From positions 30,545,716 through 30,609,715 of the forward strand of contig CM060850.1 in NCBI GenBank assembly GCA_030737835.1: a stretch of 64,000 nt of DNA, read 5' to 3'. Source of the DNA: Acorus gramineus. Its lineage: Eukaryota; Streptophyta; Magnoliopsida; Acorales; Acoraceae. Position numbers and translations under genes: made by a program. The notes beneath the pieces were generated by a model. The model had not been told where the DNA came from. It ran no database searches and worked only from the letters and a program-made list of their open reading frames with translations. Shown here in pieces: positions 5,095-40,147 of the stretch; the stretch's first letter is position 1, and each line of letters begins with the position of its first letter.

Positions 5095-5483
5095 ACCTAT
5101 GTTCTAGTTGCCGTAAAAAGTCGGACTGTATTAACAAAAGGGTGAGTAATAAATTTAAATTTTTTTTTATATAATTGAGATGAAATTTAAATTATTCATA
5201 ATACTTTTATCTTAAAATTATGTATCATTCATTTATCTATTATCACTCCACCATCATCTCTGATTTTCATTTTTATTATTTTTTAATCTAAGCATTAATG
5301 AACCTTGGACAGCTATTGAGATATAGGATCGGACTAGCTCTTTCCATAACATTGACCCTATAAAGTTAAAGCCCATCCATTCATCACAATAAGGCCCTCA
5401 AATCAGTACCGGCGCTAAACGACTATAAACGCAACGCACCACGCGAATTTGGAGTCAGAGTGCTCCAAAAAGAGAGAGTCGAG

Positions 5484-7973
5484 ATGACTTTGTATCCCAC
5501 CAACTCGGCACGCCCTACAGCATCTGAAAAAGACCTAAAAAGGGATCTTCTTAAACAGGTTTTCTGAAACTTGTATCCCTTTTTCTCCAGCAATTGCAAT
5601 TCATATAAAAAGTTTTATTTAGGTTAGGAAATAGAAAGAATAAGAGGGAAAAAGTAAAAAACCCTTTTTTGGTTCTGTTATTTCAGATACGAAGTCATGA
5701 AGTTGCAATTGCAGAACTTAATAGCCTCTCATCCTCCAGGGTAGATATTCAATCCCTGATTCATGTTTATTCAATTTTCTTTGATGCCACTGAAGCTATA
5801 TCTTCTTGTCTTGATTTTTCTAAGTACATGTATTTCGGGATAGAAGCCTTTCTTCTCTAGTGTGTCAAGGTATAACTCACATGCGCAAACTGAATAATGA
5901 ATAAGAGTGAGGGTTTCTCATTTGCTTGTCTAGATTATATTAGTAGGCTGACATCAAAACTGTTGAGGAAGCTACGCGTTTAGGGATGGATCTCAACGCC
6001 TGCGTAATAATAAAGAGAATAAAACTACACAGGAGAACACACAAATTTACATGATTAAGCAAAATTTGTCTACATCCACGGAGAAGAAAACGATTCACTA
6101 TTAAGTAATCAAATTCTAAAATCTCTCTCCTCAACATTGTCCCTCTCTCAAAGAATACCCTATACGCAACGAAAAGACTAATAAATAAGATAAAAGTGGG
6201 GAAATGACAAAACTACCCCTAAAAATAAGCCTAACCTGGCTTAAGAGACAAGTCCATTCTTACTAGAATACAAGACATCTCACAACAAAAATAAAACCTA
6301 GTTTTTCTTTTTCTTGCTTGGTAGGGCTAGGGTTTTCAACCAGGGCTATAGTATTCAAAGTTGTATTGATTGCAATTTAACAAATAGGCACTTATGTAGT
6401 ACCCATGAATTGAGGAAATAGACTATATTCAATCATTCCAACAAGAACAGGTCATCAAATTGCAAGGAAGAAATAAAACAGGTGATCATTTTTGAAATCT
6501 GAATCAGGACCCAGTCAGTTACCTGTATCTGTTGCGGATGTTCGCTATGTTAGCTCAAGAGGTTGATTATTTAGCTCGTCTCAGAATGTATAAGCTGGTT
6601 CTCTGCTGTACAGAGAGATATTCCTACCTGGATAAATAAGGTAAGAAGAATAAATAAGTTACTGAATGTTTTGACTGATATGCTCAAAGAGGGGATTAGA
6701 AGAACAAATACAGCATGAACTTATCACATAAAATTTCAAAAAAAAAAAAAAACGGTGAGATTTTTCTTAATAATCCATCAATTGCTGAATTCAAAATGAC
6801 AAGAATTGTACAAATGGATGTCTTGAAACTTCCAGTTCAGAAGAAATTTTGTCTTCATGTGCTAGATGGAAGACTGAATTCTGTCATCGTAGCAAGAGCT
6901 AGAAAAAAAAATACACATTATCTATTGAATGCCGATTTAAGTGCAATTCTACAACCATATGACATCCAAGAATATCCACTGATGTTATGTTATAAGACAT
7001 GCATGTGAAATGACATTGTGACACCCACAAAATAAGATGTGCCGCTGATAAAGAGTATTGAATTGCTTGCTTTCATGAATTTTTATTAATTTCGGTGGAA
7101 CACTGTACAATAACATACTCTGATGTAAGGGGAAAAATAACAAGAAAGCCTGATAACAAGAAGGCACTGGAATGCATGATATCTTAGGTGGATAAGGGAC
7201 ATTTTTGTTTAGTGTGGATACATTTCGGAATAATTATATTCTCGTAAGATAGAACAAACCCTAATAACAATACAATGCGGGAATAAGTATAATTTATTCA
7301 TACTTGTCCATCAAAAATTATAACTATATTATAACAAGATAAACATGAAAGACAAAAATATATGCAAACACAGAAAAATAGCAACTAAACTGAGAATCAC
7401 CTATAACTATTTTATGATCAAATAAGTTTTCGCAAATTAAATGGAGGATTAGTAATTTTTATATTATCAACCAGGCACAAGTTTCATATTGCCCGGTGCA
7501 CTCGTGACCGTTTTTCTAGTACTTTTCAGTCATATTTATAATACAAATTTTTATGCGTTCTGAAAGTGCCTTTACTGTCTGTTTCTAAATTATTATCTGA
7601 TTTTCACAAAAACAAGAGATCTATGTACATTGACAGATGTCTCTCACATCCTCAAATGGCAAAATTTTATCATACCAACACTTTCAATTCTAGTTTTGTG
7701 GGGATACCCTTATGATAATGATAATCTACAGTTATAGTTCCAGAAGAGCTTGATACCAATTGCCTCTTAACAGGCTGTCTATCAAAGAAATGGAAATATA
7801 TTCTTCCGTAAAAATATCAAGACCGCGACAGAATTTGAACAAAGTAAGCAATTATGATTTATTTTTCATTGCTTATTTTAAAACTTATGGCGGTTTCTCA
7901 TTTTTGACATTTCTGTTGATCAGAACAACTTGATTTGACCAAGACTCAGCTGCAGAAGTTAAATGCAACTTGA
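5484..7973 (+). CDS. Prefoldin-like small protein (ASDURF / plant prefoldin-chaperone family), copy 1
   Basis: Four exons (5484-5558, 5687-5740, 7774-7843, 7924-7973) join in frame to 82 residues. The chain is a short coiled coil: a region containing EKDLKRDLLKQ, then the helix EVAIAELNSLSSSR, then the turn AVYQRNGNIFF, then a second helix ending QLQKLNAT. The turn, a Tyr followed by Asn and IFF, is the family signature shared with animal ASDURF, a prefoldin-like subunit of the PAQosome/R2TP-associated complex, and with small plant proteins annotated as prefoldin chaperone subunits. The likely role is cytosolic co-chaperone assembly. Intron 2 is about 2 kb and holds an unrelated gene fragment. 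The protein differs from copy 2 at residue 3 (Leu here, Ser there) and residue 16 (Lys here, Glu there). Relatives I know carry Glu at 16, so copy 2 may be closer to the ancestor. Confidence 0.8.
6505..7010 (+). pseudogene. Unidentified gene fragment inside intron 2 (copy 1)
   Basis: A decayed coding-like stretch lies in the long intron of the prefoldin-like gene. The matching place in copy 2 stays open for about 70 codons with a plausible protein-like composition. Here it is broken by small insertions and an A-run near 6730. Near the end the phrase LLNADLSAILQPYDIQEYPL is readable. I do not recognise the family. It probably entered the intron before the segment was duplicated. Confidence 0.35.
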
Positions 7974-8525
7974 CTTGTTTCCTGGACATGCCACACAGAA
8001 AGAAGGGGTTGTCACTTTCAGTTGTTGGTATCTCAAGTTTTGCCTAATTTATTATATTTATGTGGCTATTGGTTTTTACGGTTTGCAACTAATACTAGAG
8101 AACTGAAAGAGAGACTTCAATAGGTTTTGATGTTTGGATCTCTTATATTTGCAAATTGTGTGTTGGCATAACCACTAGCATAATATGCAACTCTATGTAT
8201 TTATTGCATTGAAATAGAGAACATGAACAAACAAAAAGGGATGCTATAAATAAATATAAAAAAAAGGATGCTACAGTGATTATGGCTCACATCAAAGCAA
8301 TATGAATAATTTGTCTCCAAAACACAAAGTCATGATGTGAATAGAAAATAGAAGTTGGAGAGTAGCATTCAACAGCTATACAATTCAAGAAGTTTATGTG
8401 TTAGCAAAGTAAATGATGGATCTGACCACAGAAATTAAAGAGGTGCTATTGTTTTAGATTTTCCACAAATTCACAAATAAAGATGTCTAGAGAGACAATC
8501 AAGTCTCGATGTCAACAATTTAAAA

Positions 8526-8834
8526 CTATAAATCCCATTTTAACATGATCAATGCCTTCTTTAACAATTCATTGAAAGAAGAATCAGAGGCAACGTTGTG
8601 TTTCAACACAGCACAACAAATGATCCTGTACAGAAACACATCGAATGAGATCGGAAGAAGAGGGAAAGTGAGGTTCACATCTTCTGCTTCGAATTGATTC
8701 CAGATTCCACCAGATTATTCACGACGGAGATCATAGTCGGGAGTCTCAACGAGAGACGGCGAAGTGTCCGCCGCCGAGGACCATCGGTGGATTGAAATCG
8801 TAGGGTTTCGGTGAGATCCCTCGTCGTTTGTCAT
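8526..8834 (-). pseudogene. 103-codon reading frame with one internal stop (copy 1)
   Basis: On the minus strand a frame opens with ATG at 8834 and runs to TAG at 8526, interrupted once by TAA (8715-8717). The first part begins MTNDEGSHRNPTISIHRW; the second contains FPLLPISFDVFLYRI and ends LIMLKWDL. Copy 2 (32530-32838) keeps the same frame and length, with a stop at the same codon but spelled TGA. The family is not recognised. It could be the dead 5' end of a divergently transcribed gene, or two short frames that happen to share phase. Confidence 0.35.
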
Positions 8835-8882
8835 CTCTTCTTCTGTTCTTCAGAAGAAAAAAATGATATCCACATCCCTGTT

Positions 8883-10230
8883 TTATAATGGCGGGTTATT
8901 CAAAATTTCAAGAGGGAAAATAAAAATGAAAACAAAGAGGGAGCTGAATAAAATCGGACGGCTCGCGCAAAAGAATCGTGTGAGGGAAGGATAGAAAGCA
9001 AAAATCTACACGTGGCAACATAAGAAGAAGCTTTCGATTGTGTCCGTAAAAATAAATGGTTAAATTCTGAGGACCATATCCAATTCAATTAATTAATGTT
9101 AATCCATTTTTCGGTCTCAATTACTATTTAAATTATTTTAATTTTTTTTAAAATAATATATATATCATCTAATGAAGTACATGTTTTTTTAAAAATTAAA
9201 ACATGTACTATAATAAATTGCGTGAATACATTTATAAAAAAATTATATACGTGCATATGCCTTGTTAACGTAAATATATTATTCGATGATTTTTTATCGA
9301 TGCGTGTGATAACACCACTCATCTGTTATAAAAAAACTCAACTCTAAAAAAAATAAGGGTTCTTACAAATTTACCCCCTGTCATAATGTATATTTGTCAA
9401 AATACACTTGAAAAAATCATCATCATAAAAATATATTATATGTGTAGTAAAATTTAAAGTATGGTTCTTATATATAGTAAAATTTAATGATTTAAACAAA
9501 CACCATTCCCCCGATCCCTCTGCTGTCATCATCTAATAATTGTCCAATTAAATTGAATATCCATCAAACAATTAAAAAATATATATAATAAATCACATCT
9601 TCCTGAACTGTGATCCGCTTTTTACTTCTCATTATCGTTTGTCTTCTAAAAACTAGCTGATGATAATAGCTTGAATTAGCATTGAAGAGATGATGATCGA
9701 TAGCTTGTTAAGATTGGAGGTTGGTGTTCACACCATATCATTCCTCTCCCCCCTATATATATATAGTTCTCATGTATTACGCGGAGCGAAAATGTTTAAA
9801 ATAAACACTAAAAAATAAAAATGATGCACTCTCCAATCTATCATAGATTGTAGTTCCACTTTTGTATAGGTGCATAGCGTGAGGGGCTCTGTGATTGAGG
9901 AAGACGGTAGAAACTTTTTTCTTCACTTCCTCTGCCGAAGAAGCATTTATAAAGATAAAAAATTCAAAAAGTTGCACGGGTTCTGTTTCGATAATCTTTG
10001 GGAGAAACTCATCAGTCTATGATCATATATTGGGTTCTTGTCCTGGGGTTGCCTCGCATCCACTTTGTATAGGTGCCCAGCGTGAGGGTCTCCGTGATTG
10101 GGAAAGATGGTACAAACATTTTCTACACTTCCTCTATCGCGTTTGTATGCTTTTTGTTTCTTTTTTTATATATATTTTGTTATTTTTTATTTGTTTCTTT
10201 TCATCACCCTTCAGATATTGTGTATTTTAA
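8883..10230. other. AT-rich spacer with repeat fragments
   Basis: No gene is seen. It holds one copy of a dispersed repeat (9105-9312). It also holds a Mutator-like terminal fragment (9357-9410) that matches the reverse complement of sequence near 37480-37537. Confidence 0.5.
9105..9312. repeat. Dispersed repeat family R1, copy a
   Basis: This ~200-bp stretch resembles 36826-37055 and 57445-57660 in the same orientation. Shared marks are a poly-T/A block, 'tctaatgaagtacatg', 'gaatacatttataaaaa', and 'gcatatgccttgttaacg' followed by a Ttttatcgatgc-type tail. Divergence among copies is large. No ends or target duplications were defined, so the type is unknown. Confidence 0.55.
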
Positions 10231-10231
10231 A

Positions 10232-10861
10232 CTATTTTTGGAGGGTGAAAACCCCGCACAAAGTGAAGTGCTTCATGTGGTTTCTTTTACAGGAAAAGCT
10301 GGTCACCAAAGAATTTCATCAAAAATGAAGACCAAACGAATCCCCAATGTGCCACATTTGTAGTGAAGAGGTAGAATCACTAGAGCATCTTTTTCTGTCT
10401 ATGCCCAGGGACAGCTCGGCTGTGGTTATGCTTGGAAGCGCTCGTTGGGAGGAGGTGCCGCATCCAATCCTTGAGGGATCTGCGGGAGGTGGTCTCGACC
10501 ATGCAGGCTAAACAAGCATCGAGGGGCAGGTGGAGCTGTCACTGTTTCCAGTAGCAGCATAGGTGATTTGACAATTTGTGGGAGACCTTTTACAGATGTG
10601 TCCGAGACTGGGACAAAGGATTGGCGGGTGCGGCAGGGGTAATTGTGGAGGAAGATGGGTGGTATGTGATGGCGTAACGAAAGGTTTTTTGTAATGAGAA
10701 GAGCTCTTTGGTATATGTAAATTGTTTACCTTGAGTTCCTTTACCCATGTTATATGTGTTGTAATTTTTTATTTCTTTTCTACTCCTCTCACCCCCATTT
10801 AGATATGTTTCCGTTCTATGATGAAATAGAAAGTGTCCAAATTGTCTCAAAAAAAAAAAAA
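10232..10861 (+). mobile_element. LINE 3'-end remnant with zf-RVT fragment and poly(A)
   Basis: From 10350 a frame reads CHIC, SEEVESLEHLFL, then SMP. This is the zinc-binding region (zf-RVT) that follows reverse transcriptase in plant L1-type LINEs; the final Cys of the usual HLFLxCP is a Met here. Just before it, KVKCFMWFLL matches the usual pre-zinc segment, but a TAG separates the two, so it is dead. An A-run at 10848-10861 fits the retroposed tail. The RT domain itself is absent. Confidence 0.6.
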
Positions 10862-12700
10862 ATTTCTACACGATGGTCCAGTTTTAGTGTTTTAAAACAC
10901 GACCCAACCCGGCTGGATAAATCGGTTAAATTTTCACCTGCTTTGAATTCTGGTTCAATTTACTCATAAAATCCACTGATATAAAAAATCGATAAAACTT
11001 AATCAATCCACCTGTTAAATCAACGATTCTTTATGAACCGGCACAGATTCATTAAATCGATAGATTCTTTACTTATAGAAATTATGATTAATTATTTGAT
11101 AACATATAAAATTTAAATAAAAATCTAGATTTATATACTAAAATCATGTTATAATGTTAAATAAAAAAATTTATAATTTTTTTTTAAAACATATCATAAT
11201 TTTTTATTAATATTAATAATTAATATATTTATTATATTATAATTATGTTACAATTTAAATGTAATGGGTGATCCTTGAGGGTTTTTTTTTTGTTTATTTG
11301 TTTTTCATAAACACTGTACAATTTACGAAAAATAAACGAATATTAATGAAAAAATAAAAAAAACAATAAAAAAACATCAACTCTAATGAGATTTGACAGA
11401 CAGTTGGAAACCCAACTTGACCTGGCAAACCCAACCGTTCAGGATCGGCCACGCCATCATCCAGTACGGATTCACTGCCACTGTCACGTCATTTTCGATA
11501 TACTGTACACTGACACAGCCCGTTTTTTGCCCCTAATTTCAGCCACATCATTTATATTATATTATTTATAAAATACGATCACTTTGTTATTTTTTAATTA
11601 TATTTTATCTAATATAATGACAAATCATTCAAATATATGTTTATTTTTATAATTTTTTAATAGAATTATTTTCACAAGCACGAGAAAGGCTATCAAAATG
11701 CCGAAGAACTGACTCATTTAGATGGAAATGTAAATGTCTCCATGCTTTGATAATCAAATAAATATTGAGACCGACATTGTTTTACAGTTTTTTTAACTTC
11801 AAAAAATTGATCTCAACATCGCGTTGATGTAGTATTCAGTGGTCATAACACAACGATTCAAAATTTAACAATGTTACCGATAATCCACATAAACACCATA
11901 TAAAAAAAAAAAATCACGTTAGATGTAGGTCAGGAACATGATAAAATAAAACCATATGAAAACACTTTCAGAGTTTTCCAGCCTTTGTACCGCATAATCC
12001 ACATCAACACGGAAAATGATAATTACATATTTACGCTAAGTTTTTTTAATTAATTTTATTATTTAAACTGATGCATTTCAATTACACAAAAATAATAGCA
12101 CTTATATGAAAAATGACATAATATTATATTTTTTGTGATTAATCCAAATAATCAAGTTGATTAAATTAATCATAACAGTATCAGTACCCATCTTCCTTAA
12201 ATAAAGGCATACCTTGAAAAACTAAAACTCTAAATACAAAAAAAATATAATAGTTGTATTTTATATTTAGTGGTTTTGAAAAATCAACGTGGAGAGAACG
12301 GCACATTCCACACTCAGCCGTTCGAGGAGTGGTGACGTCATCCCTCGGTGGGCAGCGGCTCCGCATCTCGATATATCTTCGATTGAACCGCTGACGTGGC
12401 AGTCGAACAGAGCCAAGTCTGACCATGTCAGCGAGGTCAGGCTGTCTTAAACATGTGCTAGCCAATCAAGACGCACGTTTGCCGACAACCTTTTTATTTT
12501 TCCAACCAGAATAAAAAAATAAAAAAAAAAATTAATTCAAAATATGCCACGTAAGCATGCAAACCTTAAAGAGGAAGCCAAATTTCACGTGATGTGATTT
12601 TACAAGTATCTCAGTATCTGATATTTTTATAGAATTGTTTACAATTACTCAGACTTTCACTTTGTAAGCAAAATCTGCAGCAAACAGAGCCTGAAATAGG
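10862..12700. other. Intergenic, no gene seen
   Basis: AT-rich with short A/T runs. Between about 12290 and 12480 the base composition rises and a palindromic TGACGTCA (12333-12340) and a GACGTGGC box (12393-12400) occur, as in bZIP-bound promoters. No adjacent gene start was found for them to serve. Confidence 0.45.
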
Positions 12701-13185
12701 GTGGACTCACATTATTTCAAAAAGAAATGCAGAGGCCAGACATGGCAGCTAATAATGCCAAATACTTGAATATGTTTGGTGGGGGTAAAAGTACTAGCAA
12801 GATCTGCTCTTTTTTTTTTGGTATCAGGGAAAAAAAAACCCACCCATTTCATGTTATAGTGTTGCAAATGCAGGCAGAGTATATAAAAGGACATGCAGAA
12901 GCAGCATTCATGCATTTGATGTAACATAAAATTATAATGTCAAGCCTCATTGGGACTGAGTGCAAATCATAGAAAAACAAAAGAACAGACCAGTAGCCAC
13001 TCCCCTACAGCAGAGAAGGTTTATCAGGAGAGAAAGACAGGGAGAGTTTTTAGAAAAACAAGTTAATTCTGTGAACAGCTTCAAGCCTTCATCATACCTC
13101 AATCATCTGCACGTGTAGGAACAGATAATGATTGTTAGGAGACATTCAGAGTCAGAAGAGAATAACAAAGTTGACTCGTTTTCAA

Positions 13186-16100
13186 CTAACCGTTCGGGGA
13201 TTGGGAGCTCGTCGCGGAGAAATCAGAGGAGGCCATTGGTATGGAAATGGAGAGTTGGGTGGTTGAGAATGACGAGCGGTTGGACCTCTCGTCATCCAAA
13301 TCTGACCATGAATCCCTCGCCTTGGGCCATTCGTCGAAGAAAGGTCGGAGAAACTGAGCTTCCTGTTTCACGGGCTCAGCAGAACAGAAGTCACTCCCAA
13401 AAAATGAATGCTGTTGCAGTTGCTGCTTGGACAGCGCAGAAGCAAGCGTTGAGTGTCCGAAGTCTTGCATGGATCGCATTTGGGGATAGTCGCTTTGGAG
13501 GAATGAGCCATTTCTAGGCTTTGAAGTTTGGAAGCAGGATACTCCAGATGGCATCAGACTCCATGTGCTGTCAAGGGAGGAATCCATTGTGAGGCTTCTC
13601 ACAGTTCCGGATGCTTCAGAGAAGAAACTATGTTCATCAACATCCCCCTTCATTCCATGGAGATATCTGTGCGTTCTCGGCAGAGTGGAGGAGGACATGT
13701 TAAAAGTGCATAATCTTGAAAAACAAGTTTCCTAGGATCACAAGATAGTTACAAAGTACAATATTTATTTTGGTAATCCAACTCATAAACATAGCTCATG
13801 AGAACTTAAAAGTTTTCCTTCCATGGGATTTGAGCAATCAATTGACATACTTGTTAAATACTTTAATATATAAAGGTCCACATAAATTTGATGTAAATGA
13901 GAGTCATAGGAACATGAGATGAAATTAGAGGTTTCATGGTAATCACAAGTTAAGCGGCTCACAAGGAGACCAACATGCAGTGAATCTGCTATGATTGCTG
14001 GTCCGATGTGGGTATCTCATAGTCAAAGCGCAGGGTGGTTTTCAGAGAGAAGCTACAAATTTTTGTTTGCAATATTGTCAATAAAGCAAGTCATTTCATT
14101 GAGGGCTTTATGGGATATTCAGAACTGATATAACAGCAAACAAGAGTTGAATGTTAATCTATCATGTACAACTGAATATGGACAATTTCGTCACCAAAGA
14201 ACTTCATGTGCTCCAGCAGAACAATGTACTGAATCACTGATAGTTATTTAAAAGCAAAATATCTGTTGATCTGTAGCACATTAGAACACTATGAAAGAAA
14301 AATTGATTCACTTACAGGAGACATTACAAGATTTATATCAAAAAGTAATTTTCAGAAAATCTTACACTTGGATGGGTAGATTTATAATGAGAAATGGGAA
14401 GACATTCTAGGCCCTACCGTCTTAAAGCATTGGGAAATAGTGAAGAGCTTAACTCACAATTGCTTCTGAAATTCTTCATCAAAAGCATATTGAATATGGT
14501 ACAGAACATCATACAGGCATGTAAATCAAGAAGGTGAGTTCACAACCTTTATCAGCATCAATCTAAAAGTCCACCTAGAATTTAGTGAATCCAAATCGGA
14601 TTTATGTTCACAGGTGCATTGAACCTGCTTATTATTGCAATCTTCTGGCCAAAAGGAGAGCTTGTGTCATTGACTCTTATGCCTTGCTAAAAGAGGTTCA
14701 GGAGATTGGCAACACAGAGAACCAGGAGTTGTTTTGATCCAATTAACCTACTACTAACAGTCTTGAGTTCTAAATAACTGGGTTGGTTGGGTAGAAACTT
14801 GACAAACAGTACAAACTAAAATTTCCACAGTTATTAACAATTCTCAATAAGTTTTAATAAAAAAAGATAGAGAAAAAAAATGCACATATAAATTCCGATC
14901 CACTTAAGACCAGTACCATGAAATTGGGATAGCTACCCTTCATAGGCAATCATTTAAACCGATGATCAAGAACTTCATCAGATACAAGAAGAAATACTAC
15001 CAGAAGAGAAATTACAGACATGGGGAATCTTGCGATCTTACTTATTTCTCGCATAGGTCAAGTTATTTGAAACTATATATAACGGATTTCAGAAAGGCCT
15101 TACTTGCAATCACAGTAAATAATCTAAAAATACGCGCACTGTTTTTGTGTTATATTTTGATACTCAACTATATCATTTAGCTGAATGAAGAAGCTACTTA
15201 TGTTCACAGAGTGATGTACCAATGTACCATCATAAATCAAACAGAGTCTAGCAAATAAGTTGTTCCTTGAGTACCTCAAACATAAACAAGCCTTAAGTAG
15301 AACAGTTCACCTGTAATCTTTGCTACCAATTCCATAGGTACCAGGTGGTTCCATCTGCAGGGAAGACACATTGCTGCTCCCGGAGCCAATTGAGTTCAAA
15401 GGCAGGCTATGGAAGCCTCCACCACTACCACCACAACCACCAGTGGTGGTGGAAGATGAACCGGCAGAGGCAGAGAGGGACGTGAGAGTCGATGAAGACT
15501 GAGAGAGGGAGTGGGTTTCCACAGGCTTTCTTGAACGGTTTCGGCCACGATGCATATGACGCTCACAGTATTTGGAGTCCGGATAAGCATCCTTCGAGCA
15601 CCTCCACTTCTTACCATCCGTCCTCCTGCACCGCCCTGGCTCCGGGTCCAGTTTCTTCCCATAATACGAGCAATACCCCACTGTCTCAAGCAAATCAATG
15701 CATAAATGTGGTGACATATGTGTATCGATTAATACCAAATAGAAAAGCTAAACAGTTTCACTCATATAAATGCAAGCGGAATGGCACGAGTTGGATTGAC
15801 AACATGGGATCACATAAATCAGTGAGAACTTCCAGTAAAAGATCAAAAAGCGAAAACAATGGGAAGAGAAGAGTCCCAAGATTCATATAAAACCGAAAGA
15901 GGTATATGAATGAGCTGAAAAGAATTGTCAAAGAACGCAAATGGCTCTGATTTGCAACAAAATCAAAACAAAGCAGGGCCGCATATAAAGCCCTCATAGA
16001 AACTATGGGAAATCAATAGAGAGTTACAGATCCTCAACATAACACTAAAAAATAACTAGATAAACAAAATCATAGACAAGAACCCTAAATGACCTAAAGA

Positions 16101-16689: not shown

Positions 16690-16878
16690 ATCCCCTGCTC
16701 AAACAGTCCCCGGGACAACCAAAAGAGGAACAAAGGGTGCGAAGAGTACAGAAGCAGTGGCGGCTCAGACATAACGGGAACCGCCGAAAATGGCGGTCTC
16801 TCCCGATGAGAAAACGTAGGGTTTCGCCATTTTAGGAAGTGAAGGTGAGAGAGAAAAAGAGAGATGCGTGGGAGGGGC

Positions 16879-16888
16879 TTTTTATACA
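16879..16888 (-). promoter_or_regulatory. Possible TATA box of the GRF gene
   Basis: On the minus strand the sequence reads TATAAAAAGC about 190 bases before the GRF start codon. The stretch between is rich in GA/TC, as in many plant 5' leaders. It is supported by position only. Confidence 0.4.
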
Positions 16889-16889
16889 A

Positions 16890-18625: not shown

Positions 18626-18630
18626 AGGAC

Positions 18631-18941: not shown

Positions 18942-18950
18942 CTCCCCCTT
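18942..18950 (-). other. Polypurine tract of the copia element
   Basis: On the minus strand AAGGGGGAG abuts the start of the 3' LTR. This is the expected position for the primer of plus-strand synthesis. Confidence 0.8.
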
Positions 18951-24700: not shown

Positions 24701-24705
24701 AGGAC

Positions 24706-27188: not shown

Positions 27189-29200
27189 TCGTCTTTAACC
27201 ATTCTCTAACGGTCTGTTCATACACATCGTTAAATGTTTTTTATTTTTAAATTTTTAGAAATTATTTTTACTGTTTAATCTTTCTTTTATTCATATTTTA
27301 TTTTAAAAATAAATTATTGTATATTATTATATATAAAAAAATTCAATATAAATCCCTTTAAATAACTAAAATGCCCTACATAAAAAATACCCCACTATAT
27401 ATGTTTCTTCTTAAATGTGTTAAGAATAAATTATTATATACTATTAAGTTAATCATACTAGGTAGAGATTTATAAGAATTAAACGCGTAATTCAATTCAG
27501 AGAGTTATATGGATATTCAAAAAAATAAGAGATCGATATGTATATTCACGTTCTTTTAGGGGTTATGTGAATATATATTTTTAGAGTAACGTTAAATAAT
27601 TGAATATTTCAATAACATTCTTCATAAATTGATGACAATTTAACTCAGAATTGCTTGACCATAGAAAATTTTAGGATATACATGGTTTTTTAGAAAATAA
27701 AATACGGGGGTATGGATATTAGCGAAACGTTCAGGGGGCTTTATGTATGTTTCCCAAAAAAAAAAAAAAAAAACTACGGTCTCGGGTCACACTCCATTAA
27801 AGCCGGGATGTCCTGTTTGACAAATAAAAGGAAGCTCGAGAGAGAGAGAGAGAGAGAGAGACAGATCGATTGTTTGCTTTCTTGTCGCTCGATCCATTCG
27901 ATCACCATGAGCCTCTTCGGTCTGGGCAGGTGCTCTGATCTCTCCCCATCCCCGATGTTGTATGAATCGCATCGGTTTAATTGAAGTGTTTTTTTTTTTT
28001 TTTTTTTCTGTTTGTTGAATTATTCTAACGTGAATTCTTTAGTTGATCTGAACATAGATCGGGATCTTCTTTTTTAACTTGCTTTACTTTCGATGTCATA
28101 TCGCTTATCTTCCGTGCTGGTTTTTTTCGGAATTTTGTTTGATCTTGTTTTGATCTGGATCTGTATAGCTTATAAAAGAAGGTTTTGAAGGATATATTTT
28201 TCAATTCGGACAGAATTTCGAGGAATTTGGGGGGTTGGGGAGGGTTTTGTTTCTATTTGTGGATCAATTTTAGGGAGAATATTATTGAGTGAATAATAGT
28301 TGATTGAACAAAGTATCTAGAATATGTTTGATTTAGGGAGTGAGAGAATGAATCAGTTTCTCATTAGAGGTCAACCCCAAATATATAATACAAAGAAGAA
28401 AAGAGTATAAACTTCCCTTAAACAAGGAAAAAAAAATCAAAATATTGCGTACAATATCTTTAACAACCCCTCGAGCTCAATACGAATCACACACCGAGAA
28501 TTTGCTAAAAAAAAATGCATATCGCTGGAGTGTGTGTGACTTTATGAAAAAGTCAAATAACTGAAGAGAAAATGAAATATAAGGTAGTGACAATGTGCCT
28601 GCAAGAAAATTATTTTGGGAATTGAGAGAAGCCAAAATCCCTTTCATTGCAAATTTTTTTGAAATCTCTATGTTCAATGTCATCGAAGCTAACCTCGGTG
28701 CTTCTGTTCTCTCTCTCTCTTTTTTTTTCCATTCTGTTTTTGTTCTATTAATTGTCCACTGCAGTAACTATTTGATAACGTCTTCTACTCAATCATCTTC
28801 TTGTTATTTCTCAGTCGCACATCATTTAGATGCTTGAAACATATCATTATTGATTTTTGAACAGGAACTAGAAGACATTTCGCCCAAAAAAGAGTGCTCC
28901 ATCAGGGAGTAAGGTATAATTTTCCAACTCTTATGCATATTGAGACCTGGTCTGGTGTTTTACTTGATATTAAGAATTAATGAAATGCTGCATGTATTCA
29001 TAGAAAATGTTTGGAAACCAAGAAAGGTTTGGAAACAGCAATGAGATTTTTATAGAACTTGGAAAAATAATAATAGCATTGGATTAAAGATTTGAATCTT
29101 CAACTTGACTGCACCTGAAATAATTGATATGTTGAAAGGTAATTAGTAGACTGTGAATGGATTGGGTGATGGGAACTCATTGACATTTATATGAGAATTA
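27189..29200. repeat. Duplicated segment B, truncated copy
   Basis: This 2.0-kb block matches 38102-40147: MOB1 upstream sequence, exons 1-2 and part of intron 2. The match is looser over the first ~100 bp and close afterwards. It stops abruptly inside intron 2 at 29200, where segment A copy 2 begins. It lacks about 26 bp before the GA run that the complete gene has (near 38752-38780). Confidence 0.92.
27907..28913 (+). pseudogene. MOB1 5' fragment, truncated
   Basis: Exon 1 (27907-27929) is unchanged and encodes MSLFGLG plus two bases. Exon 2 (28865-28913) keeps both splice junctions, but its second complete codon is TAG where the complete gene has CAG, so translation would stop after about nine residues. 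Exons 3-7 are missing because the copy ends in intron 2. The upstream region is present and could still be transcribed toward prefoldin-like copy 2. Confidence 0.93.
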
Positions 29201-29453
29201 TGTATCATTCATTTATCTATTATCACTCCACCATCATCTCTGATTTTCATTTTTATTATTTTTTAATCTAAGCATTAATGAACCTTGGACAGCTATTGAG
29301 ATATAGGACTAGCTCTTTCCACAACATTCTATAAAGTTAAAGTCCATCCATTCATCACAATAAGGCCCTCAAATCAGTACCGGCGCTAAACGACTATAAA
29401 CGCAACGCACCACGCGAATTTGGAGTCAGAGGGCTCCAAAAAGAGAGTCGGAG

Positions 29454-31922
29454 ATGACTTCGTATCCCACCAACTCGGCACGCCCTACAGCATCTGAAGA
29501 AGACCTAAAAAGGGATCTTCTCAAACAGGTTTTCTGAAACTTGTATCCCTTTTTCTCCAGCAATTGCAATTCATATAAAAAGTTTTATTTAGGTTAGGAA
29601 ATAGAAAGAAGAAGGGGGAAAAAGTAAAAAACCCTTTTTTGGTTCTGTTATTTCAGATACGGAGTCATGAAGTTGCAATTGCAGAACTTAATAGCCTCTC
29701 ATCCTCCAGGGTAGATATTCAATCCCTGATTCATGTTTATTCAATTTTCTTTGATGCCACTGAAGCTATATCTTCTTGTCTTGATTTTTCTAATTACATG
29801 TATTTCGTGATAGAAGCCTTTCTTCTCTAGTGTGTCAAGGTATAACTCACATGCGCAAACTGAATAATGAATAAGAGTGAGGGTTTCTCGTTTGCTTGTC
29901 TAGATTATTAGTAGGCTGACATCAAAACTGTTGAGGAAGCTATTCGTTTAGGGATGGATCTCGACACTTGCGTAATAATAAAGAGAATAAAACTACTTAG
30001 GATAACACACAAATTTACGTGATTAGACAAAATTTGTCTACATCCACGGAGAAGAGTGGAAAACGATTCACTATTATTAAGTAATCAGATTCTAAAATCT
30101 CTCTCCTCAACATTGCCCCTCTCTCAAAGAAAACCCTATACGCAACTAAAATAATAAATAAGATAAAAGTGGGGAGATGACAAAAATACCCCTAAAAATA
30201 AGCCTAACCTGGCCTAAGTGGCAACTCTATTCTTACTAGAATGCAAGACATCTCACAACAAAAATGAAGCCTAGTTTTTCTTTTTCTTGCTTGGTAGGGC
30301 TAGGGTTTTCAAGCAGTGCTACAGTATTCAAAGTTGTATTGATTGCAATTTAACAAATAGGCACTTATGTAATACCCATGAATTGAGGAAATAGACTATA
30401 TTCAATCATTCCAACAAGAACAGGTCATCAAATTGCAAGGAAGAAATAAAACAGGAGATCATTTTTGAAATCTGAATCAGGACCCAGTCATTTACCTGTA
30501 TTTGTTGCTGATGTTAGCTCAAGAGTTGATTATTTAGCTCGTCTCAAAATGTTAAGCTGGTTCTCTGCTCTACAGAGAGAAATTCCTACCTCGATAAATA
30601 AGGTAAGAAGAATAAATAAGTTACTGAATGTTTTGACTGATGTGCTTAAAGAAGGGATTAGAAGAACAAATGCATAGCATGAACTTGGCACATAAAATTT
30701 CAAAAAATAATGGTGAGATTTTTCTTAATAATCCATCAATTGATGAAATTCAAAATGACAAGAATTGTACAAATAGATGTCTTGAAACTTCAAGTTTAGA
30801 AGAAATTTTGTCTTCATGTCCTAGATGGAAGACGGAATTCTGTTATAGTAGCAAGAGCTAGAAAAAAAAATACACATTATCTATTGAATGCCGATTTAAG
30901 TGCAATTCTACAACCATATGACATCCAAGAATATCCACTGATCTTCTGTTATAAGACATGCATGTGAAATGACATTGTGACACCCACAAAATAAGAGGTG
31001 CCGCTGATAAAGAGTATATATCCACCTAATTTATATTAATTTCAGTGGAACACTGTACAATAACATACTCTGCTGTAAGGGGGAAAATAACAAGAAAGCC
31101 TAATAACAAGAAGGCACTGGAATGCATGATATCTTAGGTGGATAAGGGACATTTTTGTTTAGTGTGGATTTATATTGGAATAATTATATTCTCGTAGGAT
31201 AGAACAAACCCTAATAACAATACATGCGGGAACAAGTATAATTTATTTATACTTGTCCATCAAAAATTATAACTATATTATAACAAGATAAACATGAAAG
31301 ACAAAAATATATGCAAACACAGAAAAATAGCAACTAAACTGAGAATCACCTATAACTATTTTATGATCAAATAAGTTTTCGCAAATTAAATGGAGGATTA
31401 GTAATTTTTATATTATCAACCAGGCACAAGTTTCATATTTCCCAGTGCACTCATGACCGTTTTTCTAGTACTTTTCAGTAATATTTATAATGCAAATTTT
31501 TATGCGTTCTGAAAGTGCCTTTACTGTCTGTTTCTAAATTATTATCTGATTTTCACAGAAACAAGAGATCTATGTACATTGACAGATGTCTCTCACATCC
31601 TCAAATGGCAAAATTTTATCATACCAACACTTTCAATTCTAGTTTTGTGGGGATACCCTTATGATAATGATAATCTACAGTTATAGTTCCAGAAGAGCTT
31701 GATACCAATTGCCTCTTAACAGGCTGTCTATCAAAGAAATGGAAATATATTCTTCCGTAAAAATATCAAGACCGCGACAGAATTTGAACAAAGTAAGCAA
31801 TTATGATTTATTTTTCATTGCTTATTTTAAAACTTATGGCGGTTTCTCATTTTTGACATTTCTGTTGATCAGAACAACTTGATTTGACCAAGACTCAGCT
31901 GCAGAAGTTAAATGCAACTTGA
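29454..31922 (+). CDS. Prefoldin-like small protein (ASDURF / plant prefoldin-chaperone family), copy 2
   Basis: The exons are 29454-29528, 29657-29710, 31723-31792 and 31873-31922, with the same splice phases as copy 1 and again 82 residues. There are four coding differences from copy 1. Two change the protein (Ser3, Glu16) and two are silent (one in exon 1, one in exon 2). Exons 3 and 4 are identical. The expected role is as for copy 1: a small two-helix co-chaperone subunit of the prefoldin-like/R2TP type. All junctions and the stop are intact, so both copies may be expressed. Its upstream flank has been replaced at 29196 by MOB1 intron 2 sequence, so promoter elements more than about 260 bases from the start codon differ from copy 1. 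Confidence 0.8.
30465..30963 (+). pseudogene. Unidentified gene fragment inside intron 2 (copy 2)
   Basis: The better kept copy of the intron fragment. A 70-codon frame (30465-30677) contains GPSHLPVFVADVSSRVDYLA and KLLNVLTDVLKEGIRRTN. Another frame follows with NNGEIFLNNPSIDEI and SCPRWKTEFC. Together they look like the decayed exon of a larger protein whose family I cannot name. Confidence 0.38.
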
Positions 31923-32529
31923 CTTGTTTCCTGGACATGCCACACAGAAAGAAGGGGTTGTCACTTTCAGTTGTTGGTATCTCAAGTTTTGCCTAATTTA
32001 TTATATTTATGTGGCTATTGGTTTTTACGGTTTGCAACTAATACTAGAGAACTGAAAGAGAGACTTCAATAGGTTTTGATGTTTGGATCTCTTATATTTG
32101 CAAATTGTGTGTTGGCATAACCACTAGCATAATATGCAACTCTATGTATTTATTGCATTGAAATAGAGAACATGAACAAACAAAAAGGGATGCTATAAAA
32201 AAAAAAAAAAAAGGATGCTACAGTGATTATGGCTCACATCAAAGCAATATGAATAATTTGTCTCCAAAACACAAAGTCATGATGTGAATAGAAAATAGAA
32301 GTTGGAGAGTAGCATTCAACAGCTATGCAATGCGTATGCAGATCTTCAGATGTCCTCCTACAAAAAGAGCAGGCTTATTGAATGCAATTCAAGAAGTTTA
32401 TGTGTTAGCAAAGTAAATGATGGATCTGACCACAGAAATTGAAGAGGTGCTATTGTTTTAGATTTTCCACAAATTCACAAATAAAGATGTCTAGAGAGAC
32501 AATCAAGTCTCGATGTCAACAATTTAAAA

Positions 32530-32838
32530 CTATAAATCCCATTTTAACATGATCAATGCCTTCTTTAACAATTCATTGAAAGAAGAATCAGAGGCAACGT
32601 TGTGTTTCAACACAGCACAACAAATGATCCTGTACAGAAACACATCGAATGAGATCGGAAGAAGAGGGAAAGTGAGGTTCACCTCTTCTGCTTCGAATTG
32701 ATTCCAGATTCCACCAGATCATTCACGGCGGAGATCATAGTCGGGAGTCTCGACGAGAGACGGCGAAGTGACCGCCGCCGAGGACCATCGGTGGATTGAA
32801 ATCGTAGGGTTTCGGTGAGATCCCTCGTCGTTTGTCAT
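32530..32838 (-). pseudogene. 103-codon reading frame with one internal stop (copy 2)
   Basis: Counterpart of 8526-8834, with the same start, end and frame. The internal stop is TGA (32719-32721) where copy 1 has TAA. One other visible difference changes Asp to Val before SPSLVETPD. Function unknown. Confidence 0.35.
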
Positions 32839-32902
32839 CTCTTCTTCTGTTTCATCTCTTCTTCTGTTCTTCAGAAGAAAAAAATGATATCCACATCCCT
32901 GT

Positions 32903-34760
32903 TCTTCTTCTGTTCCAGATACACCTGTATCTAAATTTGATATCCAGCCCATTTTGAAGATTGTTATTTATATTTCCATGGATTTAATTAATGTATAGCT
33001 GATTAATATCTAATTGCTTATTGTTTGTATTTTGAAGACCTTTTATAAATTTTCTATGCAGTGCTCAGTAGCATGTAGACCATAATTGTACATTTGAATT
33101 TTCAGATACATTATTGTATCTTAATTTGATAATATGTGGTTAATGTTCTGATTTTTCACCAGGCAGTGATGGTGATTTTATGGAGGACACATGCGAAGAC
33201 TCAATTCATTTGAACGACATCAATGATTCATATTATGTGGAAACCAGTTTGTCGAATGAATTGTTTGTTATGGCTGATCAGCAAAATGTATACGAGATGC
33301 AACTTATTTTTAAAGATGCGGAAATCGCGGTACAAAAGAAGCTATCGTGAAGCTTTAGAAACAAGTTGATGAACATAGTTGATCAACATGTTTTATACAA
33401 CAATTTCAGATACAATTGATTCAGATACATAAAGTGTTTACAAAAAACATTAAGACATTTTCATCAAGGGATTTAGATATGTTTTATAGAACATGAGTAC
33501 AACTTTTCAAATACAGTTGAGTATTCCAAATTATAAGTTTGAAGATATTAGTACACTATACATTTTGATTCACGGCACATACAACTTCTTAATAGCATGT
33601 AATGTGACTAATGGGATCTCTGTTTTTACATAATTGCTTCAGATTCAGATATATTTGGTTAACAGGTTTTCAGATACATATACAGTTGATTCAGATACAT
33701 ATATTGTTTACAAAAACATTAAGATATTTTCATCAAACCAATATATTCTAATTATCAAATATAAGATAATAATACATGATCTACATTTATATGACATTTC
33801 AAACATTTCATTTGGTTATTTTCAATTGCTCATTCAATCAGATTTTGTTTCACTGAATTAAGAAATAATTGCATATTATATACATTTTCAGATACATGTC
33901 TCTGACTTATGTATTCGTTTATCATTTTTTTGTTTCCTCAGAAAATGAACTGTGTACACGAGAAACCCTAAAACAATTGAAAAATGTCAATTTTTTTCCT
34001 TTAATCTAGATACACTGGTATACAAAAAGACAATGTAGCAGAAACAATTTCGTTATATATTAGAGATTTAGCACATGCTTCCAAACCTAAAAAAAATTCA
34101 GATTTGTTTGGATTCAGATACATGTATCTGAAACACTGATTTCAAACCAATCTTTTTTTATATTTCAGATGCACTTATCTGAAACACTGATTTTTCAAAT
34201 GGATTTCAGATTCAATCAGATTAACAGGAGACCAGAAAACGGAAGGGAATGGTTTTATATTTAATTTTGAAAACCAGATATTTCGTCCCCAAAAAAAAAA
34301 AAACCACGACAGTGAAGTTTCGATTGTGGCAAGAAATCTAACATTTTTTTTTTCGCTATTGTTGACGATCTGTTCAATCGGCGGATAGGATTCAATGATC
34401 CCTCTTTTTTTTTTTGGGATTCTGTTATGTCAATTAATGATGGGGAGAGGATTCAATGATCCCCCCTTTTTTGGGATTCTATTACCAGCATTAATTGGAT
34501 ATTAGTTAGTTAGAGCTAATTTTTAAAAATCTTAGAAGGGTAGTCATGTCATTGTCATTTTAGTGGTTTGAAAAAGTCAAACAGAGAACCAATAGGAGAG
34601 TGCCACCTATTGGGGCTCACCAATGGGGTCTAATTTCTGGGGCCCAGGTAGCAGCACTGCAATTTTAATCCTTTTGAGGGATATTGTTGAAAATAACAAA
34701 TCGGCGGTGATATTTTGTGTAAATGTGATTTTTAAGGGTATATATGTAAAAAAAACCATT
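32903..34760. other. CAGATAC-rich region, possible Mutator-like element remnant
   Basis: CAGATAC occurs at least eight times on the plus strand, several times in the palindromic form cagatacatgtatctg. A splice acceptor followed by a 62-codon frame (33163-33350) reads MEDTCEDSIHLND and later VYEMQLIFKDAEIAV, loosely like the start of a MULE transposase. The right end (34672-34757) resembles 37440-37537. Near 34390 and 34450 a ~37-bp direct repeat occurs. Defined termini are missing, so identity is uncertain. Confidence 0.35.
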
Positions 34761-35699
34761 AAAAATATTGAGATAGAATGGAAATGAATATGATATTATC
34801 CAATTTTTATATATATACTTACTTATATGGATAGATAGAATTTTTCTGTTTCATTTTTATCCCAATACAAAATCATAACAAAAAATAAAAAAAAACGATT
34901 ACGTTACATGATCAATACCATTCATTTCATGTATTTTAAAAAAAATTGTTATTATACTCAGTGTGACGAAGAAAGAATAAACAAATATGAATTGAAGAAA
35001 GTTGAAACGAGAAATGATCGGGCATTGCTAGATCCAATCAGTTTGTGTCAGAACTCAATACGGGAGAGACATATGTTCTTTTACATGCCAAGGATATAAA
35101 TTTTTATGCAAAATTTAGATATGTGTGGCGCGTTTGGGTGCACTTTTCTTTTTTGAAAAGCTAAAAAATTAAAATAGTGAAGCCAACCGGGTCAGTTTTT
35201 TGTAGAATCGGAAGCTGGATTCCTTAATCTCTAATTAGAATTTGAATTTGATAAATTTGATGGGACCCATCTTTAACTTGTTCTCAATCATGTCTTTCCA
35301 TACACTTCTTCCTTGCTACCTTCTTATCACAGATATGGGTCCCGTTTCGGATGACCTTAAAAACGAGTTTGCATCAACTTTTTACATGCAAATGTTATAA
35401 AATTGAGTTAAAAAAAGGGGCTTTGGAAAACTTCAAAGAGAGGTTAGGTTTCGAAACCTTTTTTGAGCCTGGAAGATAACTGTACACGAGTGGCATGTAA
35501 AATAATGGGCCAGGCCAGTAAACTATTCCTCCTGAATAAAGAGAAGACCATCGAATGTTGGGCCCACAAACAAATGTGGGCCCATACAAATCGTGTCTTA
35601 CTCTGTCAGGACAACTGTCATCTGGATGGCGATGGTCGGCTCTCGCACGGATATGGCTTTTGCTTTCTCAGATTTTTTTCATAGTGCGCTCATACATGG

Positions 35700-36112
35700 G
35701 GCTTCAAATAAACAGGGATAATATAAAAAAAAATGTTTAAAATTCTGAAATAAATAAGAATCTAATGTCAGAATTATAGGATAAAATGATATATGAATTT
35801 TAAACAGTCTCTGAAATTAAGTCATTATAGGATATTAAACTAAAAAGAATATGTGGATTTCCTGTCAAATCAATTGTTATACTCTTTTATAAATTTAATT
35901 AATTGTGAAATCAACTATAATTATTTTTTTACATTTTATAAATCCTTATCCACACCCTTTATTGACATTTTATCTAAACAACAAAGATTTTATTATTACG
36001 TTTCTCATAAGAATAATTTAATACACAACCAACAAAAAATTACTTTATTCTTATTTATATTAGAATATGTATAAACATCAAAACAACTTAATTCTCTATC
36101 CAAACGGGGCTT
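35700..36112. repeat. Dispersed MITE-like repeat family R2, copy a
   Basis: It resembles 44494-44897 and, over the right half, 58730-58910. Shared phrases are 'tgtcaaatcaatt', 'acattttataaatc', 'tttattatta', and the terminal 'ctatccaaacggggc'. The right end is clear and the left end is not. Confidence 0.5.
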
Positions 36113-36825
36113 AGTTTCCATTTTCTTCTCGTGTTTAAAATTTTTTAAGTAAAATTGTGTTTGAAATGATTCATTATTGTGTTTATTTTATGATATTCTA
36201 ATGATTTTTTATGTTTATTCTTATATATCCTATTAAAATTTTTCCTTCTACAAAATCTATCTGGATTCCTAGAAAGGAAAAATTCTTCTTTTGAACCAGA
36301 GTTACTAAATTGACCAATTTTTTGTGGTCCATTTGTAGTTGTCATCTCATTAATATTGTATATAAATCATCTAACATTATGTATATCTCACTAAACTATC
36401 ATAATATATAAGTTGTTATAAAATACGTAACAATATGTATTTAATTCATGTAAATAAAAGAATATAGTTCGTTAAATTATACATAAAAAAAATTAATATA
36501 TGTGTGAGCTGCAAACGGGGATAACATCAAAGTGAATATACTTGCATAACAAAATATGCCTATATTAAACTACGATGCGTCTACGGATATGAACCCAAAA
36601 CAATACAGATATCAAAGTTAGTATCCAACCATGTTCATATTAATACGAATATAAATGTTCATGGTCATCCGTTATTACGTGAGGTGTACTCAAATTCTGG
36701 GTACGGTTATTATGCCACTTCAGAGGCTTTAGAATTTTTCACATGGAAAATGTGACATTCAATTTCTTTTTCGTGTTCTTATTTTCAGTTTACATCCATT
36801 TTATTGTTTATATATATATATATAA

Positions 36826-37055
36826 TGTTACATCCAACCCTATTTTTAGTCTCAATTCCAGTTTACATGTGTTTTGAATTTTTTAAAAATAGAATAATTC
36901 ATCTAATGAGGTACATGCTTTTATAAAAAAAATGAAGTATATACTTCAATGAATTCCATGGATGCATTTATTAAAAATATAAAAAAATTCTTTCAAAGCA
37001 TATGTCTTATTAACGTGAGCATATACATTGTTAATTTTCTATCAACGCATATAAA
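36826..37055. repeat. Dispersed repeat family R1, copy b
   Basis: It resembles 9105-9312 and 57445-57660. It begins after a TA run with atgttacatcc and ends around 'ttttctatcaacgcat'. Divergence from copy a is far larger than that of the tandem duplication, so it is an older dispersed family. Confidence 0.55.
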
Positions 37056-37351
37056 GCTAGAATTGTGACTGGAAATGGATTTGGGTGTAACGGCCCTCAT
37101 ATATATACATATACATAAAGAATGTATACATATACATATAAAAAATGTGTAAAAAAAAATTAACAGGATATACATCTTGTTTCTATGAGTGCATGTATAT
37201 CTCGTTACTTAGAGTGCATGTGACGAACGAAAAATCAATTACCATCAATATCCCATCAATAATAAAAAAATTAACAAGATATACATCTTATCAAATTTTC
37301 CTCCTTGGAAGTCTACGACCATCAGTACCGTACAAAAGGGATTAAATTCTA

Positions 37352-37537
37352 CATTCATTCCCTTTTGAGGGGTATCAATACACAATTTAAATATTTTACA
37401 ATAATATCCCATAAGAGGGTATTTATGAACATTTTAAACCATTTCGAGAGGTATTACTGAAAATAATATTTCACCAGGAGTATTTTGACAAAATGAGATT
37501 ATGTCAGGGTCGTATATGTAAAGAAACCCCAATATTT
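37352..37537. repeat. Mutator-like terminal fragment
   Basis: It ends 'gtatatgtaaagaaacccc', preceded by 'tcagggtc' and 'attttgacaaaatgag'. A related end occurs at 34672-34757, and the reverse complement at 9357-9410. Phrases about 'gggtat' and A/T-rich breaks are typical of MULE terminal repeats. No complete element could be bounded. Confidence 0.4.
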
Positions 37538-38101
37538 TAATAACGTAATTTACTTTTGAGAAATTAAGTCTGGATCCTCCAAACAGTCCTGGAATTATTT
37601 TTAGGTCCTTAAAACATTTGTATTTTTTTTTTAGATCCCTAGATTGGTTGGAGTATTATATTCTAAGTTCTTTCATCCAATAATGTGTTATCTTTTACTA
37701 TTTTTTTCACTTTTGCCTCTACCAACATCTTTTATTTGTGTCCCCCCTCTTTTTCTCCCATCCACACGATGGCAACCCCTCCTCTTCCATGCGCGACGGG
37801 ACTAGCGCTGGTTGCTGGCAACGGGAAGATTGTTGGAGAAGAAGAGAGGAAGAAGAAGAGGGATCTCTGACGGATGGGTCCTGAGTGAGTTCTCAAGTTT
37901 TAAAAAAAGTAAAAGGGTAGATATAATAAAGGGGTGGGTTAGATAAGTATTGAGGTGGAAATAACGGCTCTTTTTTTCATTCAAGAGGAATGAAAAGACA
38001 AAAGGTTTTTTCAGTTTTAGTCCATGTGAATATATCTATTTAAGGATTGATCTCTCTCTTCTTAATATTTCTTTTTAATTCTCCTACTTCAACCTCCTAT
38101 T

Positions 38102-40147
38102 TCGTTTTTAACCATTCCCTAAACGTCCGTCCATGTATCGTTAAGTGATTTTTATTTTTAAGTCTCTATAAACTATATTTTATTGTTTGGTCCCTCCCTT
38201 ATTCATATTTTATTTTAAGAATAAATTATTGTATATTATTATATATATAAAAATTCAATATAAATCCCTTTAAATAACTAAAATGCCCTACATAAAAAAT
38301 ACCCCACTATATATGTTTCTTCTTAAATGTGTTAAGAATAAATTATTATATACTACTAAGTTAATCACATACTAGGTAGAGATTGATAAGAATTAAGCGC
38401 GTAATTCAGAGGGTTATATGGATATTCAAAAAAATAAGAGATCGATATGTATATTCACGTTCTTTCAGGGGTTATGTGAATATATATTTTTAGGGTAACG
38501 TTAAATAATTGAATATTTCAAGAACATTCTTCATAAATTGATGACAATTTAACTCAGAATTGTTTTTTGCTTGACCATAGAAAATTTTAGGATATACATG
38601 GTTTTTTAGAAAAAAAAATACGGGGGATATGGATATTAGCGAAACGTTCAGGGGGCTTTATGTATGTTTCCCAAAAAAAAAAAAAAAAACTACGGTCTCG
38701 GGTCACACTCCATTAAAACCGGGATGTCCTGTTTGACAAATAAAAGGAAACCCATTTCAGTAGAAGCTCTGCTTGGAAGCTCGAGAGAGAGAGAGAGAGA
38801 TACAGATCGATTGTTTGCTTTCTTGTCGCTCGATCCATTCGATCACCATGAGCCTCTTCGGTCTGGGCAGGTGCTCTGATCTCTCCCCATCCCCGATGTT
38901 GTATGAATCGCATCGGTTTAATTGAAGTGTTTTTTTTTTTTTGTTTTCTGTTTGTTGAATTATTCTAACGTGAATTCTTTAGTTGATCTGAACATAGATC
39001 GGGATCTTCTTTTTTAACTTGCTTTACTTTCGATGTCATATCGCTTATCTTCCGTGCTGGTTTTTTTCGGAATTTTGTTTGATCTTGTTTTGATCTGGAT
39101 CTGTATAGCTTATAAAAGAAGGTTTTGAAGGATATATTTTTCAATTCGGACAGAATTTCGAGGAATTCGGGGGGGTTGGGGAGGGTTTTGTTTCTATTTG
39201 TGGATCAATTTTAGGGAGAATATTATTGAGTGAATAATAGTTGATTGAACAAAGTATCTAGAATATGTTTGATTTAGGGAGTGAGAGAATGAATCAGTTT
39301 CTCATTAGAGGTCAACCCCAAATATATAATACAAAGAAGAAAAGAGTATAAACTTCCCTTAAACAAGGAAAAAAAAATCAAAATATCCCAAGATGCGTAC
39401 AATATCTTTAACAACCCCTCGAGCTCAATACGAATCACACACCGAGAATTTGCTAAAAAAAAATGCATATCGCTGGAGTGTGTGTGACTTTATGAAAAAG
39501 TCAAACAACTGAAGAGAAAATGAAATATAAGGTAGTGACAATGTGCCTGCAAGAAAATTATTTTGGGAATTGAGAGAAGCCAAAATCCCTTTCATTGCAA
39601 ATTTTTTTGAAATCTCTATGTTCAATGTCATCGAAGCTAACCTCGGTGCTTCTGTTCTCTCTCTCTCTCTTTTTTTCCATTCTGTTTTTGTTCTGTTAAT
39701 TGTCCACTGCAGTAACTATTTGATAACGTCTTCTACTCAATCATCTTCTTGTTATTTCTCGTCGCACATCATTTAAATGCTTGAAACATATCATTATTGA
39801 TTTTTGAACAGGAACCAGAAGACATTTCGCCCAAAAAAGAGTGCTCCATCAGGGAGTAAGGTATAATTTTCCAACTCTTATGCATATTGAGACCTGGTCT
39901 GGTGTTTTACTTGATATTAAGAATTAATGAAATGCTGCATGTATTCATAGAAAATGTTTGGAAACCAAGAAAGGTTTGGAAACAGCAATGAGATTTTTAT
40001 AGAACTTGGAAAAATAATAATAGCATTGGATTAAAGATTTGAATCTTCAACTTGACTGCACCTGAAATAATTGATATGTTGAAAGGTAATTAGTAGACTG
40101 TGAATGGATTGGGTGATGGGAACTCATTGACATTTATATGAGAATTA
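38102..40147. repeat. Duplicated segment B, parental copy
   Basis: Source-equivalent of 27189-29200. It covers the MOB1 upstream region, exons 1-2 and part of intron 2. Homology ends at the AATTA of 40143-40147; MOB1 continues uninterrupted beyond it. Confidence 0.92.

Follow-up and report, generated by a model that had tools for sequence, protein, structure and literature searches.

Layout of the Locus

The locus described here lies in Acorus gramineus (assembly GCA_030737835.1), within a 64,000-nucleotide stretch of contig CM060850.1 (C4:30545716-30609715) which will be called the window; a "w" before a number marks a window position. The gene content of the window includes MYB, GRF, and MOB1. 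Two truncated copies, B' and A', lie side by side between the original copies, A and B, from which they were derived (Table 1). Block B is the 5' region of MOB1 and block A contains stretches of unnamed kind conserved with contig C10. A preliminary description of the window had reported these duplicated blocks and attributed their order to one large tandem duplication. The blocks are real, and self-BLAST together with the junction letters showed their coordinates to be right to a few bases.

A and A' were found as three direct self-BLAST matches, pairing 5203-8384 with 29183-32331 (95.2%), 8378-8847 with 32382-32851 (98.5%), and 8831-8882 with 32852-32903 (100%). B and B' were found as one, pairing 27185-29200 with 38098-40147 (95.3%). 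The long matches have an E-value of 0, and chance is therefore excluded. The matches of B' and A' overlap at 29183-29200, and a microhomology of 18 bp was considered and rejected, as the letters give only 5 bp, AATTA. These five bases are 5216-5220 in A and 40143-40147 in B.

Table 1. Features of the window, in order of position (same numbering as the window; strand left empty where none is assigned).
Feature	Position	Strand	Basis and remarks
A, original copy	5216-8882	+	Self-BLAST; right edge 8882|8883 continuous with block conserved on C10
Conserved stretch in A, possibly exons	7751-8179	+	C10 matches; QAVYQRNGNIFFRKNIKTATEFEQSK read on plus strand, 7771-7848
GRF transcription factor gene, between A and B'	13189-16698	-	Open reading frames, extent approximate; WRC domain 15517-15645
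Long terminal repeat (LTR) retrotransposon, between A and B'	18631-24700	-	LTRs of ~310 bp, 8/306 sites differ; target duplication AGGAC
B', truncated copy of MOB1 5' part	27185-29200	+	Left end falls within a repeat intact in B
Joint B'|A', 5-bp microhomology AATTA	29196-29200		Junction letters
A', truncated copy of A	29196-32903	+	Self-BLAST, junction letters
Filler-like 12-mer CTTCTTCTGTTC at joint of A' and right flank	32904-32915	+	Last 3 bases also fit the transposon
High-copy transposon, left end cut off	32913-34669		Lacks ~0.9 kb or more by comparison with two other loci
Second repeat family	34670-34981		First ~46 bp missing, judged from two copies
Repeat unbroken across left end of B (38097|38098)	38000-38219	+	Dispersed copies
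B, original 5' region of MOB1, from upstream through exons 1-2 into intron 2	38098-40147	+	Self-BLAST
MOB1 gene, seven exon stretches	38848-42480	+	Pfam Mob1_phocein; tblastn

The B'|A' joint and both outer joints are also present in a second contig (C4:11145355-11201570), which is probably the other allele, misplaced 19 Mb away. The three joints thus predate the split of the two contigs.

The outer ends of B'A' are breakpoints in the copies and not in the originals. Outside the window and the second contig, 44 of the 45 listed matches to 37900-38300 cross 38097|38098, from a search that scored the 40 best candidate places; B is therefore intact at that point and B' is cut there. A further copy of the repeat at 38000-38219 lies upstream of the window. 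At the other end, the stretches 8530-8658, 8772-8815, and 8881-8913 have matches in the same order in an old paralogous region on C10, the last over 33 bases at 94% (E 7e-5). Since these matches span 8882, A runs beyond that base, and A' is truncated there.

To the right of A' stands the 12-mer CTTCTTCTGTTC, which occurs in the window only at 32904, in A (8837), and in A' (32858). It leads into the high-copy transposon, and 32 other places among the matches listed match this element from the same base as the window copy. At L034, one of these places, and in an unrelated copy close to the second contig, it extends ~0.9 kb further to the left; the window copy is therefore cut at the A' joint. 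For the same reason the idea of a complete Helitron-like element ending at 32913 was dropped. A search of the window for the missing part of the transposon gave nothing above two short matches at E 0.01, nor did the left flank yield the head of the second repeat, whose 46 bp are too few for a firm statement. Within the window transposon, ~100 bp that are present in the second contig and at L034 are absent at 34371-34374.

Test of a Simple Tandem Duplication

Part of the tandem interpretation stands. The copies are in direct orientation and in the expected order, and the end of B is joined to the start of A at the 5-bp microhomology. In a simple tandem duplication, however, the whole interval would be present in both units and the outer edges of B' and A' would continue into it. 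Neither was found. The intervals compared were 8883-27184 (18.3 kb, with the GRF gene) and 32904-38097 (5.2 kb). Sensitive BLAST between them gave a best match of 214 bp at 68%, lying in a dispersed repeat, and the rest were weak and repeat-like. The longest exact word common to both has 14 bases on the same strand and 16 on the opposite strand; five shuffles gave 13-15 on the same strand. As the interval is not duplicated and both outer ends are truncated, the tandem model needs at least two further large, complementary deletions which predate the contig split. The proposal that no second event is needed is therefore not borne out.

It had also been predicted that the two pairs would show similar divergence. 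For the means this is the case: A and A' differ at 108 of 3635 sites (Kimura two-parameter distance, K80, 0.0304) and B and B' at 47 of 2006 (0.0239; Fisher p = 0.17), with block-bootstrap 95% ranges of 0.021-0.039 and 0.007-0.047, respectively. However, divergence is very uneven along both pairs, which makes the agreement weak evidence. Per 250 sites it ranges from 0 to 7.2% in the A pair and from 0 to 10% in the B pair; the 10% lies in the first 250 sites of B, and within the conserved part of A ~500 sites show no difference. Either conversion or selection may have played a part, and an equal age is weakly supported by these values. Compared with the six A' copies of the second contig, A gives K80 values of 0.032-0.038. 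The C10-conserved stretch of A is approximately where A and A' are least diverged (window ~7.7-8.2 kb and 31.7-32.2 kb; two 250-site bins at 0%), and selection or conversion may be keeping A' intact there.

Paralogous regions give some indication of the older arrangement. On C10 the A paralog has a GRF (WRC) exon ~20-23 kb away, and MOB1 genes on C1 and C9 have one at ~21 and ~91 kb, respectively. On C1, GRF and MOB1 are in another relative orientation. No A match was listed near the MOB1 genes of C1 or C9 among the 40 best candidate places scored in the genome (398.6 Mb, 137 contigs). This comparison suggests that the order was once A-GRF-MOB1, without any B'A'-like segment between them, which fits both of the main models discussed below. 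The paralogous regions are presumably too old for the spacers to be aligned.

Origin of the B'A' Segment

The explanation preferred here, at about even confidence, is that B'A' (27185-32903, 5.7 kb) is one compound templated insertion, as error-prone DNA repair may leave. A break would have occurred in the GRF-MOB1 spacer and would have been mended by copying. First, 2.0 kb would have been copied from the MOB1 5' region, followed by a switch at AATTA to A, from which 3.7 kb would have been copied. Joining to the far side would then have used a piece of 9-12 bp copied from the end of A, and ~0.9 kb or more would have been lost at the target. Template switching and recombination between B' and B would have followed later, on the probable other allele. 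This explanation is preferred because one event would cover three joints, two truncations, the filler, and the target loss. The sequence itself shows the three joints, the outer truncations of the copies, the continuity of the originals, the 12-mer match, and the truncated transposon; that a single event made all three joints, that it began with a break, and that it proceeded by copying is inferred from them.

Templated insertions made by synthesis-dependent strand annealing (SDSA), microhomology-mediated break-induced replication (MMBIR), or theta-mediated end joining (TMEJ) join separate sources by microhomology without long homology. At B'|A', two sources meet in this way over 5 bp. Such insertions also carry short templated filler at their joints, a place taken here by the simple 12-mer; the patchwork filler of the second contig (see below) belongs to a later event.

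Several points weigh against a compound insertion. B' standing before A', with both direct and between the originals, is exactly the outcome of a tandem duplication, whereas free template switching would give it in about 1/8 of cases by our own estimate. The missing part of the transposon makes it necessary to assume a loss at the target. At 2 and 3.7 kb the patches would be rather long filler, and the 12-mer is CTT-rich and of simple make-up, which weakens its interpretation as filler somewhat. Large losses do occur at the locus, as seen on the second contig. Lastly, among the best 40 candidate places the left flank (26574-27184) has no copy besides that of the second contig, and no empty site that would place 27184 next to 32904 was found.

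The strongest competitor, considered less probable yet still a serious possibility, is a tandem duplication of the A-GRF-MOB1 5' segment by the AATTA microhomology, followed by two large deletions. The deletion in unit 1 would run from 27184 into the B repeat; that in unit 2, from 8882 into the transposon, would have taken the second GRF with it. Order and orientation follow directly from this model, the B'|A' joint is of tandem type, and the mean divergence of the two pairs is similar. Pieces of the old order, A-GRF and GRF-MOB1, are found on C10, C1, and C9. Moreover, a later tandem duplication of the unit from A' to B did happen on the second contig, and large losses happen there too, since its forward copies are without w32845-35701. 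However, three events are needed instead of one, and the two deletions must leave zero overlap and must both have occurred before the contig split. Outside the rearranged part, the four aligned pieces of the window and the second contig contain no indel of 30 bp or more.

A circular intermediate, in which the A to B segment was released, closed at AATTA, and reinserted after opening at another point, is improbable. Passages of PMC7450558 give an order flip that joins the two outer source ends as a sign of circular intermediates in segmental duplications, and the locus shares this change, from A..B to B'A'. In the duplications described there the insert ends adjoin in the source; here 8882 and 38098 are ~29 kb apart in the window, with A and B continuous beyond them, and an extra loss of the whole interval would be required.

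More improbable still is capture of both fragments by the high-copy element beside A'. A' does end 9 bases from the element, but the latter is cut off at the joint and does not end there, no terminal structure or target duplication enclosing B'A' was seen by eye, the sources are two neighbours and not scattered genes, and no B'A' copy was found outside C4 among the matches listed. An assembly artefact is the least probable of all, for although the genome has redundant sequence between 10-kb gaps, all three joints are common to two separately assembled contigs which are 0.9-1.9% apart, making a misassembly of the window unlikely.

Later Rearrangements on the Second Contig

The second contig (L012-L018) has 56,216 bases and lies between two runs of exactly 10,000 N, which are read as assembly gaps. 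All but ~350 of its bases are covered by BLAST matches to w12293-45928, summed over pieces. Per 500 bp it differs from the window by 0 to 1.6% in the GRF gene, by 0 to 0.6% in most of MOB1, and by up to 6.5% elsewhere. A 6-kb stretch of the contig that follows it has a full-length copy on C70 at 99%. To its left, the first 6.15 kb of L009-L011 (C4:11110001-11135354) are repeated just before the N run at 96.9%.

In the second contig, B'A' with the same joints is followed by an inverted copy of w37081-29037 and then by a forward copy of 29385-32844 joined to 35702 onward. This unit, of ~19.7 kb, is present twice. Altogether there are three B-type copies and six A' copies, of which two are inverted and two, among those in forward orientation, are partial. 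The B copy in the middle mixes B-type and B'-type letters over 23 informative columns, a pattern expected from recombination between B' and B. In the four other B copies, 19 sites group B with B and B' with B', and the alternative groupings have 4 and 1. B' therefore predates the split of the contigs.

Filler was also found at one of the new joints. At 50048-50112 of the second contig, 15 and 12 bases correspond to w32948 and w32907, and these are followed by 15 and 13 bases corresponding to w37050 and w37068 reversed; ~20 bases match neither source. This patchwork is strong evidence of template switching at the locus, in a later event. The letters at 58118 and 61549 give joints of 3 and 4 bp. 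The window has ~97 bp at 35125-35225 which are absent from the copies of the second contig and repeated elsewhere in the genome, a polymorphic small insertion.

Tentatively, and with somewhat less than even confidence, the GRF-MOB1 spacer may be regarded as a recurrent template-switch hotspot at which the process has acted at least twice. One plant would then carry two alleles, one with A and a single A' and the other with six A' and three B-type copies, and a small compound insertion would have seeded an expanding array.

Relation to Known Systems

Plant gene movement by double-strand-break repair with copied filler DNA was reportedly described by Wicker and colleagues in 2010. Rearrangements of the duplication-inverted triplication-duplication (DUP-TRP/INV-DUP) type arise by template switching. 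The second contig resembles the latter in that w29385-32844 is present forward, inverted, and forward again, the joints being short and the filler a patchwork; it differs in being a plant locus and in having a further tandem copy of the whole unit.

The idea of plant gene movement through break repair with copied filler is summarised in passages of PMC3445842, and excerpts of PMC5023962 give rice fillers of a few bp to several kb. As portrayed there, fragments are copied to a break and left truncated, with filler at the joints, and the locus is similar in these respects. In contrast, here two neighbouring sources are found in one insert, in an order that mimics tandem duplication. In the maize p1 alleles, as sections of PMC3014980 present them, repeated break repair is accompanied by short filler from tens of bases away, tandem copies, and unequal recombination. 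A similar mixture of filler, tandem copies, and recombination between copies is seen at this small locus, although the gene is a different one and the second contig has inverted copies as well. Passages of PMC5023962 and PMC3445842 already describe filler copied into breaks in plants, some of it kb-long or made up of gene fragments, and the locus is a further case of a known kind of event with an instructive disguise.

A compound repair patch can pass for a textbook tandem duplication, and telling the two apart means inspecting the outer ends of the copies, beyond their order and joint. The second contig would show what can come later, when a patch of this kind gives rise to inverted and tandem expansion. 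A literature search on prefoldin, MOB1, and tandem duplication found nothing relevant among the 10 of 14 papers listed, and no claim is made that the locus is unpublished.

Gene Content of the Blocks and Neighbouring Features

The name prefoldin, which had been given to A, was not confirmed. No Pfam family was found in the six frames of 5001-9002 at E 0.1, and Prefoldin_2 has five matches in the whole genome and none in the window. Arabidopsis prefoldin subunits 1, 2, 4, 5, and 6, used as queries, gave no window match; subunit 3 and prefoldin alpha (PF02996) alone were not searched genome-wide.

MOB1 exons were located by tblastn with the Arabidopsis protein. B carries exon 1 at 38848-38871 and exon 2 at 39804-39860. 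Their counterparts in B' are at 27907-27930 and 28857-28913, the second with an in-frame stop. This stop is also found in the first B copy of the second contig, and B' is therefore a dead MOB1 fragment which should not count as a gene in annotation.

The WRC match of the GRF gene is at C4:30561232-30561360, and its QLQ part was recognised by eye only. A zf-RVT match between A and B' is probably the remnant of a long interspersed nuclear element (LINE). The LTR retrotransposon at 18631-24700 is absent from the second contig, where a clean empty site with a single AGGAC is found. Elsewhere in the window, Rfam gave one tRNA-like match at 54903-54973, with 30.2 bits against a cut-off of 29.

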